DNA of 6,828 nucleotides from Candidatus Lithacetigena glycinireducens (GTDB lineage: Bacteria; Coprothermobacterota; HKB111), in NCBI GenBank assembly GCA_018725485.1, contig QLUP01000054.1, positions 1 through 6,828 of the forward strand, in the 5' to 3' direction. The number at the start of each line of letters is the position of its first letter. Within the stretch, counting starts at the first letter, position 1. The translations under genes were made by a program, and so were the position numbers. The notes beneath the pieces are model-generated. The model did not search any database. It was not told the origin of the DNA and worked only from the letters and a program-made list of their open reading frames with translations. Below, piece by piece: positions 1,155 through 6,721 of the stretch.

Positions 1155-2072
1155 CTATTCCTCCTTCAGGTACCTGTTGGTTGCCAGGATAGCTCCCAGC
1201 GCTCCAATAGGGATGCCGATGGAAGAAATAAATATCCAGAGGTACCACCAGTTGCTAATGTTAGTTGGAGAAAGGGGGTTAAGAAAATAAAAAATACTTT
1301 TAAGGATGGCGGTGAAGCCCGGGTTAAAGAAGAACATCAACAATATAGTAATAATACCTCCACCGAGGCCATACAACAGCCCTTCCAGTATAAAAGGACG
1401 CATAACATAAGAGGTTGGAGCACCTACTATACCCATAATCTGTATTTCCTCGCGTCTGCCCCTGATGGCAAACCCGACTGTTAATGATATCAAAATAATA
1501 GCAAAAAGGGCAAATAATATAAAGACTATAGTTCCAACTAATCGGACAGCGGAAACTATCTGGTTAACACGGTTTATAGTATCACCGGTATTTAATATAC
1601 TGGTTATCAGGGGAATTTCCTGGAATAAAGCGACCATTTTGGGGGCATCCTCCAGGTGGTTAAGGGTAATTTCCAGAGAGGGTGGAATGGGGTTATCATC
1701 AATATCGGTAGATATGGACCCGTGACTTCCCATCAGGTAGGATAACCTACCGAGAGCTTCTTCAGGAGTTATCAGCTTGACAGTTTTTACTTCAGGCCTA
1801 ATCTGAAAAATACCAATCAAATCATCAATAGCTTCTTGAGGGGTGCTCTTTTCCAGGTAGGCTACCAGGGAAACCTGGGTTTGAATATGTGTAGCCGCTT
1901 CTCTGAAAACCATCACCAACCCCGAAGTTACCGTCAGGGTGGTTAAAGCAATGGTTATAGAAAGCACTGAAGCGGTGCTTACATATATGTTTCTGGATAT
2001 ACCTGCATAGGCTTTCTTGAGAGCCCGTCCCCAGATGATTAACAGTGGCTGGTATTTATCCTTCACTAACAA
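1155..2072 (-). CDS. ftsX: FtsX, membrane subunit of the FtsEX division/cell-wall complex
   Basis: Integral membrane partner of FtsE; it transmits ATP-driven movement to peptidoglycan hydrolases outside the cell. The 305 residues show the family layout: a short cytoplasmic N-terminus, TM1 about 33-55, an extracellular domain about 58-175 containing the family-typical DNPIPPSLEITL segment (126-137), then TM2 about 178-203, TM3 about 225-249 and TM4 about 275-298. After TM2 comes the FtsX/MacB-like coupling stretch GRREEIQIMGIVGAP (205-219), followed by PFILEG. The start is a TTG at 2072 with GAGG six bases upstream. An in-frame TAA lies seven codons upstream with no other start between, so the only alternative near the N-terminus is GTG at 2066. 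The TTG start overlaps ftsE by 17 nt, implying translational coupling and balanced production of the two subunits. It ends with TAG, immediately followed by the ATG of the M23 hydrolase gene. Confidence 0.94.
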   Translation of the reverse strand: MLVKDKYQPLLIIWGRALKKAYAGISRNIYVSTASVLSITIALTTLTVTSGLVMVFREAATHIQTQVSLVAYLEKSTPQEAIDDLIGIFQIRPEVKTVKLITPEEALGRLSYLMGSHGSISTDIDDNPIPPSLEITLNHLEDAPKMVALFQEIPLITSILNTGDTINRVNQIVSAVRLVGTIVFILFALFAIILISLTVGFAIRGRREEIQIMGIVGAPTSYVMRPFILEGLLYGLGGGIITILLMFFFNPGFTAILKSIFYFLNPLSPTNISNWWYLWIFISSIGIPIGALGAILATNRYLKEE

Positions 2073-2718
2073 TTCTTCCCTCGCGAAGCTTTATTATCCT
2101 GCCTGGATTTTTACGCGTTAATTCTTCATTGTGAGTAGCAAAGACAATGCTCATACCGCGTTGGTGCAGGGTGCTAAGCACGCTCATTATACCATGAGCG
2201 GTTTCCCTGTCCAGGTTGGCTGTAGGCTCATCAGCCAGAAGTAAAATCGGTTCAGAAGCAATAGCTCGGGCTATAGCCACCCTTTGTTGTTCTCCACCAG
2301 AGAGTTCAGCAGGAAACAAATCTCTTTTATTTTCCAGCGCCAACCAGCTGAAGATACTCTCTAACCTTTTTTTGATAGATTTATCCGAATAACCCTGAAC
2401 TTCCAGGGGAAGGGAAGCGTTTTCAAAGGAAGTACGATAAGGAACCAGGCGATAATCCTGGAAAATAACCCCAATCTGCCTTCTGATAGCAGACACTCCA
2501 GCAGGAGAAAGGTGCTTAAGGTTTTTACCCATGAAAGTGACCTGCCCAAAAGAAGGCACCTGGGCCCGGTAGGCTAATTCCAGCAAAGTAGTTTTACCCG
2601 ACCCGGTAGGCCCAAGCATATAGACCATCTCTCCCTGTTCAATGGTTAAGGAGATGTTTCTCAGGGCAAACACTTTTCTATGGGGATAGATTTTGCTGGC
2701 TTTAAAATAAGTTAACAT
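2056..2718 (-). CDS. ftsE: FtsE, ATPase subunit of the FtsEX complex
   Basis: Cytoplasmic ABC-type ATPase that works with FtsX in cell division and/or wall elongation; it is thought to transmit a signal rather than transport a substrate. The 220 residues (E. coli FtsE has 222) contain every nucleotide-binding motif in order: Walker A GPTGSGKT (36-43), Q-loop FQDYRLVP (86-93) followed by the FtsE-typical RTSFEN, signature LSGGEQQRVAIARA (139-152), Walker B ILLLADEP (158-165, E164 catalytic), D-loop NLD (168-170) and switch histidine H196 in FATHNEE. The ATG at 2718 is fixed by an in-frame TGA 24 nt upstream with no other start codon between. No good Shine-Dalgarno precedes it. Its first seven bases overlap the end of prfB, so expression probably depends on coupling to prfB translation. 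General ABC importers share these motifs; the adjacent ftsX makes the assignment firm. Confidence 0.96.
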   Translation of the reverse strand: MLTYFKASKIYPHRKVFALRNISLTIEQGEMVYMLGPTGSGKTTLLELAYRAQVPSFGQVTFMGKNLKHLSPAGVSAIRRQIGVIFQDYRLVPYRTSFENASLPLEVQGYSDKSIKKRLESIFSWLALENKRDLFPAELSGGEQQRVAIARAIASEPILLLADEPTANLDRETAHGIMSVLSTLHQRGMSIVFATHNEELTRKNPGRIIKLREGRIVSEG

Positions 2719-3789
2719 TGAATTGATTTCAGGTAGGCTTCAATAAATATATCTATTTCCCCCCTCATCACAGATTCCACATCTCCTACTTCCACCTCGG
2801 TACGATGGTCTTTAACCATCTGGTAAGGTTGGAACACATAGGAACGAATCTGGTTTCCCCAGGAAGCGCTTTTATATTCTCCTTTTATTGTTCTAATCTC
2901 CTTTTTTTGTTGTTCTTCCCTTACCTGGAAAAGTCTGGAGGCTAACACTTTTATAGCAGTAGCCTTATTCAGATGTTGAGATCTTTCATTCTGGCAGGTG
3001 ACTACTAAGCCTGTTGGTAGGTGGGTTATTCTTACCGCGGAATCGGTTTTTTGCACATGTTGCCCACCTTTACCAGAGGACCTGTAGGTATCTATTCTTA
3101 ACTCGCTTTCATCAACTGCCACTTCTACCTCTTGCATTTCTGGCGTAACTTCCACCAGTGCAAAAGAGGTGTGTCTTCTTTTATTAGCATCAAAAGGGGA
3201 AATCCTTACCAACCTATGTACCCCGGCTTCTGATTTCAGATAGCCATAAGCATAATCTCCGTCAACCTGAAGGGTCATACTTTTTATTCCTGCTTCATCT
3301 CCTGGAGAGGTTTCTATAATCTTAACATTATAATCCTTTTTAGTACACCAGAAATAATACATACGGGATAAAAGTTCTGCCCAATCCTGGGCATCCACAC
3401 CTCCAGAACCCGCATGGACTGAGAGAAAACAGGAGCGTTTATCAAGAGGGTCTTTAAAAAGCAAGAGCAATTTAAATTCCAGGGCTTCTTTAATACCTCT
3501 CTCTAATTTTTCTTCAAATTCGTTTTTGAGGGAAGTATCAGAGGTTTCCTCCATAAGCTCCTTAAGGTTTTGTAATTCTTCGTAGGCGGCTTCCAGATTC
3601 TCCTGCCGATTAATAAATTTTTTCAAGTTTTCTATTTCTTTAAACAGGTTCTGAGCTTTTTCAGGGTCGTTCCATAAGGTAGGAGATTCTGTTTTAAGGG
3701 CAAGTTCAGCCAGACGGTTTTTCCAGTCTGAGGCTTCAAAGAAACCTCCTTATCTCTTCCAGGTATTCTCTAAATAAGTTTTCGTCCAT
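2712..3789 (-). CDS. prfB: Peptide chain release factor 2, expressed by programmed +1 frameshift
   Basis: RF2 recognises UGA and UAA stop codons and triggers hydrolysis of peptidyl-tRNA on the ribosome. The gene is split across two frames. The zero frame starts at ATG 3789 and reads 17 residues (MDENLFREYLEEIRRFL) before a UGA at 3738-3736. Skipping the T at 3738 opens the +1 frame, EASDWKNRLAEL and onward, to a TAA at 2714-2712. The joined product is 358 residues, against 365 in E. coli. The RF2 stop-codon reading motif SPF lies at about 197-199 and the catalytic GGQ at about 241-243. The start is firm: the secA stop TAA (3795-3793) is in the same frame six bases upstream, and this is the only ATG before the shift site. 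A weak purine stretch (AGAAGA) overlapping the secA end may serve as Shine-Dalgarno. An annotation beginning at the internal TTG (3626) would lose 54 residues. Confidence 0.95.
3736..3750 (-). promoter_or_regulatory. prfB programmed +1 frameshift (recoding) site
   Basis: On the minus strand the sequence reads AGGAGG TTT CTT TGA. It combines an internal Shine-Dalgarno-like AGGAGG (3750-3745), a 3-nt spacer, the slippery codon CTT (3741-3739) and the in-frame stop TGA (3738-3736). This matches the known RF2 autoregulatory signal (E. coli AGGGGG UAU CUU UGA) including the 3-nt spacing. When RF2 is scarce, the ribosome pauses at UGA, anti-Shine-Dalgarno pairing helps tRNA-Leu slip to UUU, and full-length RF2 is made. 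When RF2 is plentiful, a 17-residue peptide is released. The base after UGA is A, so the first +1 codon is GAA (Glu) rather than the more common GAC (Asp). Confidence 0.95.
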
Positions 3790-3792
3790 AAA

Positions 3793-6144
3793 TTATCTTC
3801 TTTTAGGTGCTCTCGAAGCAGGTTGGGGAGACTCTTTCACCTGAAAATGGAATAGTATTCTCAAAAACTCGCTTTTGGTTGATTCCATCATCTCCGAGAA
3901 TAACCTGTGGGCTTCGTAGCGAAATTCCACCAGTGGTTCTTTCTGAGCGTAAGCCCTTAAACCTATGCCTTCCTTGATGTGGTCAATGTTTAGAAGGTGT
4001 TCCTTGAAGTGTTCATCAAGAATTCTTAAAAACACAAATTTCTCCACCGACTTCAAGGTTTCCTCACCAAACTGCTGTTCCCGGTCCTGGTATTTTTTAA
4101 CCAGGTATTCTGTAAGAGCCTCGGTATTATAGGTAGTTTCCGAAAGGTCATAAGGAAGGGAGCCAAAAATCAGGAGAAGTTCTTTTTTTATCTCCTCAAA
4201 AGAGATTTGGCCACCTTCTAACTCTTTAAAGTAAGCCTCAACTACTTCTTTAATAAATATCAGAACCTGCTCTTTTAGTCTCTCAGACTGGAGAGCTTTT
4301 CTTCTTTCGCGGTAAACGAACTCCCGTTGTCGGTTAAGGACATCATCAAAGTTAATCAGGGCTTTACGAATTTCAAAGTTGTACTTTTCCACCCTTTTCT
4401 GGGCAGTTTCAATAGCCCGGCTTAGAAGGGCATGGTCAAGGGGTTCATCTTCAGGAAAACTAAGCCTTTCCATAAGTCTTTGCAACATTTCTCCGCCGAA
4501 TATTTTCATTAATTCATCGTCCAGAGAGACATAGAAGCGGGATTCTCCAAAATCTCCCTGCCTTCCCGACCTACCCCTGAGTTGATTATCTATTCTTCTA
4601 CTTTCATGTCTTTCAGTACCAATCACATAAAGTCCACCAATGTCTTTTATACCATTACCCAGAACAATGTCCACACCGCGACCGGCCATGTTAGTAGCAA
4701 TAGTCACCGCGTTTTTCTGGCCAGCCTTAGCTATGATGGATGCTTCTTTTTCGTGGTATTTAGCATTAAGAACCTCATGGGGTACCCCCTCTCTTTTAAG
4801 CAGGGAGCTTAAAACCTCAGATTTTTCTATAGAACGGGTGCCTACCAGTACCGGCCTTCCTCTCTGGCTATTTCTTACTATGTCCCTGATGATTGCGCGG
4901 AATTTGCCTTTCTCCGTTTTATATACCACATCGGTGTTATCAACCCTTATCATGGGTAGATTGGTGGGGATAACTACCGTTTCCAGCCCGTAAATAGAGC
5001 GAAACTCCTCTGCTTCTGTATATGCTGTACCGGTCATACCGGCTAATTTTTCATACATACGAAAATAGTTTTGGATGCTGATGGTGGCTAATGTTTGTGT
5101 TTCCTCCCTGACTAACACATTTTCTTTGGCTTCAATAGCCTGATGCAGGCCATCGCTGTATCTTCTTCCAGGGAGCATCCTGCCGGTGAACTCATCAACA
5201 ATTACCACCTCTCCTTCCTTAACCACATAATTCACATCTTTTTTAAATAAATAATGGGCCTTGAGAGATTGGGTTATGTGCCTGAGGATAGAAGAATGCT
5301 CGGGGTCGTATAGGTTATCTACATGAAGTAAATTTTCTAATTGCTTTATACCAGCCTCAGTCAGAGTAGCGGATTTTGCTTTATGGTCAAGTTCGAAATC
5401 TTTTCCTTCTTTTAACCTGGTAGCCCAGCGGTTAGCGCGGTAATAGGTGGTAGTAGATTCAGCAGAAGGGCCGGCGATAATGAGAGGGGTACGGGCTTCG
5501 TCAATTAAGATGGAGTCAACCTCGTCCACAATACCATAGGTAAGTTTTCTTTGCACCATCTCCTGCGCATCAATCGCCATATTGTCTCTCAGGTAATCAA
5601 AACCGAACTCGGTGTTGGTACCATAAGTGATATCAGCCAGGTAAGCCTTCTTTTTTTCCTGGTGTGACTGCCCGTGCAGGGTAACCCCTACCTTTAAGCC
5701 GAGAAAATTGTATATGGGTCCCATCCACTCTGCGTCTCTTTTTGCCAGGTACTCGTTGACGGTGATAAGGTGTACTCCCTCTCCGGTAAGGGTATTTAAG
5801 CAAACAGGCAGTGTAGCTACCAGGGTTTTCCCTTCACCGGTTTTCATTTCAGCAATCATTCCCTTATGCAGAACTACACCACCAATTATCTGGACATCAA
5901 AATGCCTTAAACCGATAGTTCGAGTAGAAACCTCCCGTACCAGAGCAAAAACTTCAGGAAGAAGCGAGTCCAAGGTTTCGCCATTTTGAAAGCGGTTACG
6001 ATATTGGTTCATTCTGCTTTTAAGGTCATCATCACTGCTTTTTTTAACCTCTTCTTCTAATGATGAAACCTTAACCAGTAAGGGTCTAATGTTTTTTAGA
6101 ATCCTGGTAGAAGGGTCTAAATATCTTTTAAGGAAGTTTAACAA
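3793..6144 (-). CDS. secA: SecA, preprotein translocase motor ATPase
   Basis: SecA pushes unfolded secretory proteins through SecYEG using ATP. The 783-residue protein shows the expected order: Walker A MKTGEGKT (100-107), Walker B and following block VDEVDSILIDEARTPLIIAG (206-225), the preprotein crosslinking domain after it, VDEFTGRMLPGRRYSDG (316-332), LAGMTGTAYTE (367-377), then the second ATPase half with TNMAGRGVDI (484-493) and RIDNQLRGRSGRQGD (517-531). A helical scaffold/wing region follows, ending with GIGLRAYAQKEPLVEFRYEA (726-745). The start is TTG at 6144 with AGGA at 6155-6152 (7-nt spacer). An in-frame TAG at 6174-6172 with no other start between makes this start firm, and MLNFLKRYLDP fits SecA N-termini. 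Oddities: the tail after the scaffold is only about 14 residues, with no Cys-rich zinc/SecB-binding motif, and the usual scaffold Trp is Phe714. B. subtilis SecA has 841 residues and E. coli 901. Confidence 0.97.
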   Translation of the reverse strand: MLNFLKRYLDPSTRILKNIRPLLVKVSSLEEEVKKSSDDDLKSRMNQYRNRFQNGETLDSLLPEVFALVREVSTRTIGLRHFDVQIIGGVVLHKGMIAEMKTGEGKTLVATLPVCLNTLTGEGVHLITVNEYLAKRDAEWMGPIYNFLGLKVGVTLHGQSHQEKKKAYLADITYGTNTEFGFDYLRDNMAIDAQEMVQRKLTYGIVDEVDSILIDEARTPLIIAGPSAESTTTYYRANRWATRLKEGKDFELDHKAKSATLTEAGIKQLENLLHVDNLYDPEHSSILRHITQSLKAHYLFKKDVNYVVKEGEVVIVDEFTGRMLPGRRYSDGLHQAIEAKENVLVREETQTLATISIQNYFRMYEKLAGMTGTAYTEAEEFRSIYGLETVVIPTNLPMIRVDNTDVVYKTEKGKFRAIIRDIVRNSQRGRPVLVGTRSIEKSEVLSSLLKREGVPHEVLNAKYHEKEASIIAKAGQKNAVTIATNMAGRGVDIVLGNGIKDIGGLYVIGTERHESRRIDNQLRGRSGRQGDFGESRFYVSLDDELMKIFGGEMLQRLMERLSFPEDEPLDHALLSRAIETAQKRVEKYNFEIRKALINFDDVLNRQREFVYRERRKALQSERLKEQVLIFIKEVVEAYFKELEGGQISFEEIKKELLLIFGSLPYDLSETTYNTEALTEYLVKKYQDREQQFGEETLKSVEKFVFLRILDEHFKEHLLNIDHIKEGIGLRAYAQKEPLVEFRYEAHRLFSEMMESTKSEFLRILFHFQVKESPQPASRAPKRR

Positions 6145-6191: not shown

Positions 6192-6721
6192 AGCTCTCCC
6201 AAAATCAAGCCCAGATTTCCGTCAGTTCTTTTATAAAGGAGCCCGATATTTCCAGTCTGGGGATGTAGAAAGAGGAAAAAACTATGACCTAAAAGCTCCA
6301 TCTGTTCAATGGCTTCGTTCTCGTCCATGGGTCTTAATGGAAATTTCTTGGTTTTAACAATTTTTGGTTTTTCCTTTTCTTCTTCAGGGTTGGTGGGGTA
6401 CTCAGGCATTCCTCTGATAATATCATTGGGGTGGGAACGAGAGGTTAGGCGTTCTTTGTATCTTCTTATCTGATTTTCAATGCTTTCTACCGACAAATCA
6501 ATAGAAGAGTACATATCAGTGTTTCTTTCTTCACTTCGGATGATTTTACCGGAAGCCATCAGGGTTATTTCAGAAATGCTCTGCCCTCTTTCCAGAGAAA
6601 GAGTTAGGGTTACACTCTGGATGTTACTAAAGTAACGGGTTAATTTATTTATTTTTTTTATGCCATATTCTTTTAAATCATTGGTTAAATCTATATTTTT
6701 TCCTTTGACAGTTATATTCAT
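6188..6721 (-). CDS. hpf: Long-form ribosome hibernation promoting factor
   Basis: HPF binds the 30S decoding region of idle ribosomes and, in its long form, dimerises them into inactive 100S particles during starvation or stationary phase. The 177-residue protein has the ribosome-binding domain at about 1-95 (MNITVKGKNIDLTNDLKEYG at the start, then RSEERNTDMYSSIDLSVESI at about 63-82) and a charged linker at about 96-120. The C-terminal dimerisation domain covers about 121-177 (IVKTKKFPLRPM, EAIEQMELLGHSFFLF, ending DGNLGLILGEL). Presence of the C-terminal domain separates it from short HPF and YfiA of enteric bacteria. The ATG at 6721 is preceded by GGAGG at 6732-6728 with a 6-nt spacer. 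It is the first gene after the only sizeable intergenic gap and lies 43 bp before secA, a neighbour pairing common in Firmicutes and related phyla. Confidence 0.95.
   Translation of the reverse strand: MNITVKGKNIDLTNDLKEYGIKKINKLTRYFSNIQSVTLTLSLERGQSISEITLMASGKIIRSEERNTDMYSSIDLSVESIENQIRRYKERLTSRSHPNDIIRGMPEYPTNPEEEKEKPKIVKTKKFPLRPMDENEAIEQMELLGHSFFLFLHPQTGNIGLLYKRTDGNLGLILGEL

Follow-up and report, generated by a model that had tools for sequence, protein, structure and literature searches.

The prfB gene of the Candidatus Lithacetigena glycinireducens stretch analysed here contains what is almost certainly a classical autoregulatory +1 programmed ribosomal frameshift (probability about 0.97). 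The stretch, termed the window, is 6,828 nucleotides long and constitutes contig C155 of a 1.24 Mb assembly in 204 contigs. The elements of the signal, listed below with the neighbouring secA gene, are present base for base as described in the initial annotation.

3736..3789, minus strand: zero-frame leader open reading frame of prfB, consisting of ATG, 17 sense codons in all and TGA (from sequence; 17/17 codons nucleotide-identical in the congener)
3745..3750, minus strand: internal Shine-Dalgarno (SD)-like AGGAGG, 3 nt 5′ of the slippery codon (from sequence)
3738..3741, minus strand: slippery CTT-T, formed by Leu codon 17 and the first base of the stop (from sequence)
3736..3738, minus strand: premature in-frame TGA, followed by A (from sequence)
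2712..3737, minus strand: +1 frame of prfB, 341 codons and TAA, encoding RF2 residues 18–358 (from translation, RF2 profile and structure alignment)
3750..3752, minus strand: main-frame TAA that bars an in-frame upstream start (from sequence; one TAA inside the family match)
3793..6144, minus strand: secA, whose stop lies 3 nt ahead of the prfB ATG

The leader sequence on the minus strand, positions 3789–3736, is ATGGACGAAAACTTATTTAGAGAATACCTGGAAGAGATAAGGAGGTTTCTTTGA. It is translated as MDENLFREYLEEIRRFL followed by the stop, with the ATG at 3789 counted among the 17 sense codons. The 3′ end of the leader reads AGGAGG-TTT-CTT-TGA (3750–3736), and the next base is A. When T3738 is skipped, the next codon is GAA (Glu18) and the frame then remains open for 341 codons until the TAA ending at 2712, which yields a product of 358 residues. 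This agrees with the translation proposed initially. Between the main-frame TAA at 3752–3750 and position 3626 the main frame has no ATG, GTG or TTG. A start at TTG 3626 would give a protein of 304 residues, 54 fewer than the joined RF2, as the initial annotation had calculated. Since the main frame is interrupted by a stop and first offers a common start codon at 3626, the RF2 N-terminus requires a shift.

The joined product is an RF2 protein. Against the NCBIfam prfB model TIGR00020 it scores 482.7 bits over residues 7–354, with a curated RF2 cut-off of 370 bits, and the alignment to RF2 families proposed as a check bears out the gene identity. The version that starts at TTG 3626 scores 441.6 bits, approximately 41 bits lower. 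The RF1 model TIGR00019 gives 287.4 bits on the joined product, below the RF1 cut-off of 423.25. RF2 chains of solved structure align to residues 10 to 355, and the SPF stop-recognition and GGQ catalytic motifs are found in the translation as RISPFDANKRRHTSF and SGKGGQHVQKT, respectively.

Three signatures of the known prfB signal were looked for and are present: a premature TGA after 17 codons with the remainder of the gene in the +1 frame, a slippery CTTT directly at the stop (CTT-TGA, 3741–3736), and the AGGAGG 3 nt 5′ of the slippery codon, which matches the anti-SD of the congener. A fourth, the weak termination context provided by C after TGA, is common but neither universal nor strictly defining, and it is absent at this prfB site, which has A instead. 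The description of the site as textbook therefore holds for the SD-like sequence, spacing, slippery codon and stop, but not for the base after TGA. The A is a point against the classical reading, although a minor local peculiarity. A search of the 1.24 Mb genome for the exact pattern RGGRGGNNNCTTTGA gave a single hit, at the prfB site, but the reversed control pattern is likewise found once, and thus the 15-mer by itself is not rare. What chance does not explain is that it falls on the prfB frame junction, where the site also lies in other bacteria.

Among named organisms, the closest relative is the congener Candidatus Psychracetigena formicireducens BS5B28 (G001; loci L033 and L086), a separate assembly whose NCBI phylum is Ca. 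Lithacetigenota and which was described from The Cedars (PMC9751293). It is 86% identical to the window in a 6.8 kb alignment. Its prfB leader, motif, frame break and junction are nucleotide-identical to those of the window, whereas its RF2 is 85% identical and 113/341 of the downstream codons differ. No substitutions are found in the 17 leader codons. The identical run over the leader is 70 nt, the second longest in the alignment; the longest is a stretch of 106 nt in hpf (window 6453–6558, minus strand). Since a 70-nt run is only second longest at 86% overall identity, the perfect identity of the leader is only moderately unusual and not proof, but it is suggestive of a possible constraint at the nucleotide level.

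The site varies within the group. Two genomes of a sister family, f3, have a variant site, AGGGAT-CGT-CTT-TGA-C. Family f2 (genomes G002, G003, G005, G007 and G008; loci L034, L035, L037, L039 and L040, respectively) has orthologous RF2 proteins, approximately 45% identical, but here the prfB frame is continuous, with no internal stop and no CTTTGA site at the junction. TGA usage was considered as a cause of the absence of the site in f2 and does not clearly account for it: the TGA share among sampled open reading frames is 26–27% in f1, 33–41% in f3 and 30–44% in f2, ranges that rest on small numbers and show no clear separation.

In a broader survey, with CTTT or TTTT as the search criterion, 112 of the 136 RF2 loci evaluated carried a frameshift site. 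As this set counts the congener two times (as L033 and as L086) and holds a number of other close relatives, the counts do not represent independent events. The stop is TGA at all 112 sites, and the slippery codon is CTT in 108. The base after TGA is C in 98/112 and A in 9/112. The gene, frame, motif, junction and product length first given for the site are all correct, and this interpretation is upheld by related sequences.

The proposed mode of action follows the anatomy of the site, with the slippage, its efficiency and the response to RF2 taken over from E. coli, where competition between RF2 and slippage at UGA has been studied; the published mechanism and motif match the prfB site (PMC12421855). 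That RF2 autoregulation by UGA recoding is an established phenomenon, as had been noted, is in agreement with this literature. Ribosomes would initiate at ATG 3789, read 17 codons and then pause, the P site occupied by CTT (Leu17) and the A site by UGA, with AGGAGG paired to the 16S rRNA anti-SD. With RF2 plentiful, termination at UGA would free a 17-residue peptide. With RF2 scarce, the Leu-tRNA would move one base onto UUU, GAA (Glu18) would be read next and translation would proceed into the 341-codon frame, producing more RF2. The anatomy and conservation of the site are best explained by autoregulation of RF2 through competition at UGA. The assembly that contains the window yielded no 16S rRNA; the 16S rRNA of the congener ends in GGATCACCTCCTTT at its 3′ end, which is able to pair with AGGAGG through the anti-SD ACCTCCTTT. 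TGA terminates approximately 26% of sampled long open reading frames, and the genome has a separate, uninterrupted RF1 gene. Accordingly, UGA is a working stop in this genome and a competition at UGA is meaningful.

Could the frame break be an indel introduced during sequencing or assembly, with the true prfB in frame? Indels do occur in assemblies such as this one of 204 contigs. However, the identical break and motif are present in the separately assembled congener, at 86% identity to the window, a variant site is present in the sister family, and the site lies where other bacteria would lead one to expect it. An error is thus extremely unlikely, and with both congener and sister family carrying the site it is in practice excluded. 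It is also highly unlikely that RF2 arises by internal initiation at TTG 3626 with the upstream part untranslated. This TTG is the first common start codon of the main frame, but the 20 bases upstream of it have no SD-like sequence, and the 37 codons from 3737 to 3627 encode conserved RF2 sequence, as indicated by the 41 bits gained with the N-terminus and by the structure alignment. Evolution of these codons also looks more coding-like when they are read in the main frame (pS 0.217 and pN 0.068) than when the frame is offset by one base (pS 0.137 and pN 0.108), albeit with small counts.

The genome does have components for selenocysteine insertion, which could bear on UGA 3738: a tRNA-Sec with anticodon TCA (69.1 bits, cut-off 47) and SelB (374.8 bits, cut-off 242.25), both on contig C183. 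Decoding of this UGA as selenocysteine nevertheless has a negligible likelihood, as readthrough in the zero frame meets another TGA after nine codons and never joins the RF2 frame. The tRNA-Sec and selB genes are near each other (G000:C183:11877–11968 and 16358–18238), and UGA in this genome serves as a stop and probably also as a selenocysteine codon. SelB was not found above the cut-off in family f3.

A hairpin, GAGGUUUC-UUU-GAAGCCUC (window 3730–3748, minus strand), spans part of the internal SD-like sequence and the frameshift site. Its energy is −10.2 kcal/mol, a value attained by 53 of 6801 27-mers of the window. This raises the question of a variant signal, in which the hairpin would mask the internal SD in the intervals between ribosomes, with the A after TGA retained for pairing and the leader constrained in nucleotide sequence for the hairpin. 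A structured-RNA stimulator is not apparent, in that the 121-nt region folds no better than shuffled sequences (z −0.85). At 48 non-redundant sites the mean energy is −4.49 kcal/mol versus −4.37 when downstream halves are swapped between species, and 61/200 permutations are as low. Similar hairpins are found at a few other species' sites, not above expectation. As folding at the 48 sites is no stronger than in the swapped controls, the local hairpin is treated as probably incidental, and the variant signal is very unlikely.

The main genes of the window, all encoded on the minus strand, are hpf, secA, prfB, ftsE, ftsX and an envC-like peptidase gene, in that order. The SD upstream of the prfB initiator, ATG 3789, is weak, which counts somewhat against the classical reading. 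The 3-nt gap after secA makes secA-prfB translational coupling possible. The end of prfB and the start of ftsE share 7 nt (window 2712–2718, minus strand), and ftsE and ftsX overlap by 17 nt (window 2056–2072, minus strand); these overlaps suggest a translationally coupled operon. The window has no Rfam match at the gathering threshold, and promoter and terminator scans around prfB yielded no more than in shuffled sequences.

The window prfB resembles that of E. coli and most bacteria in its early in-frame TGA, an SD-like sequence separated from CTT by 3 nt, the CTTT run and a full-length RF2 obtained only after a +1 shift (PMC12421855). It differs in having A rather than C after TGA, in a leader of 17 codons ahead of the stop where the E. 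coli TGA is codon 26, and in an AGGAGG where the consensus of known systems approaches AGGGGG (PMC12421855). A 2025 survey of 12,753 genomes found a premature prfB stop in 64% of them and makes the case for a frameshift signal ancestral to bacteria; its main text does not contain the lineage names Ca. Psychracetigena or Ca. Lithacetigenota (PMC12421855). The prfB sequences in that survey were drawn from NCBI-annotated genomes, and the suggestion that ordinary gene calling misses such genes thus applies to simple open reading frame callers only (PMC12421855).

The prfB frameshift of the window is real and conserved, yet ordinary, a textbook mechanism common to most bacteria. The A after TGA, the probably incidental hairpin and the genomic selenocysteine machinery are minor local peculiarities. 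The understanding of the mechanism is unchanged by this gene. What it provides is a correct RF2 gene model for a little-studied, uncultured lineage, and one more case of the presence and absence of the signal inside one group.
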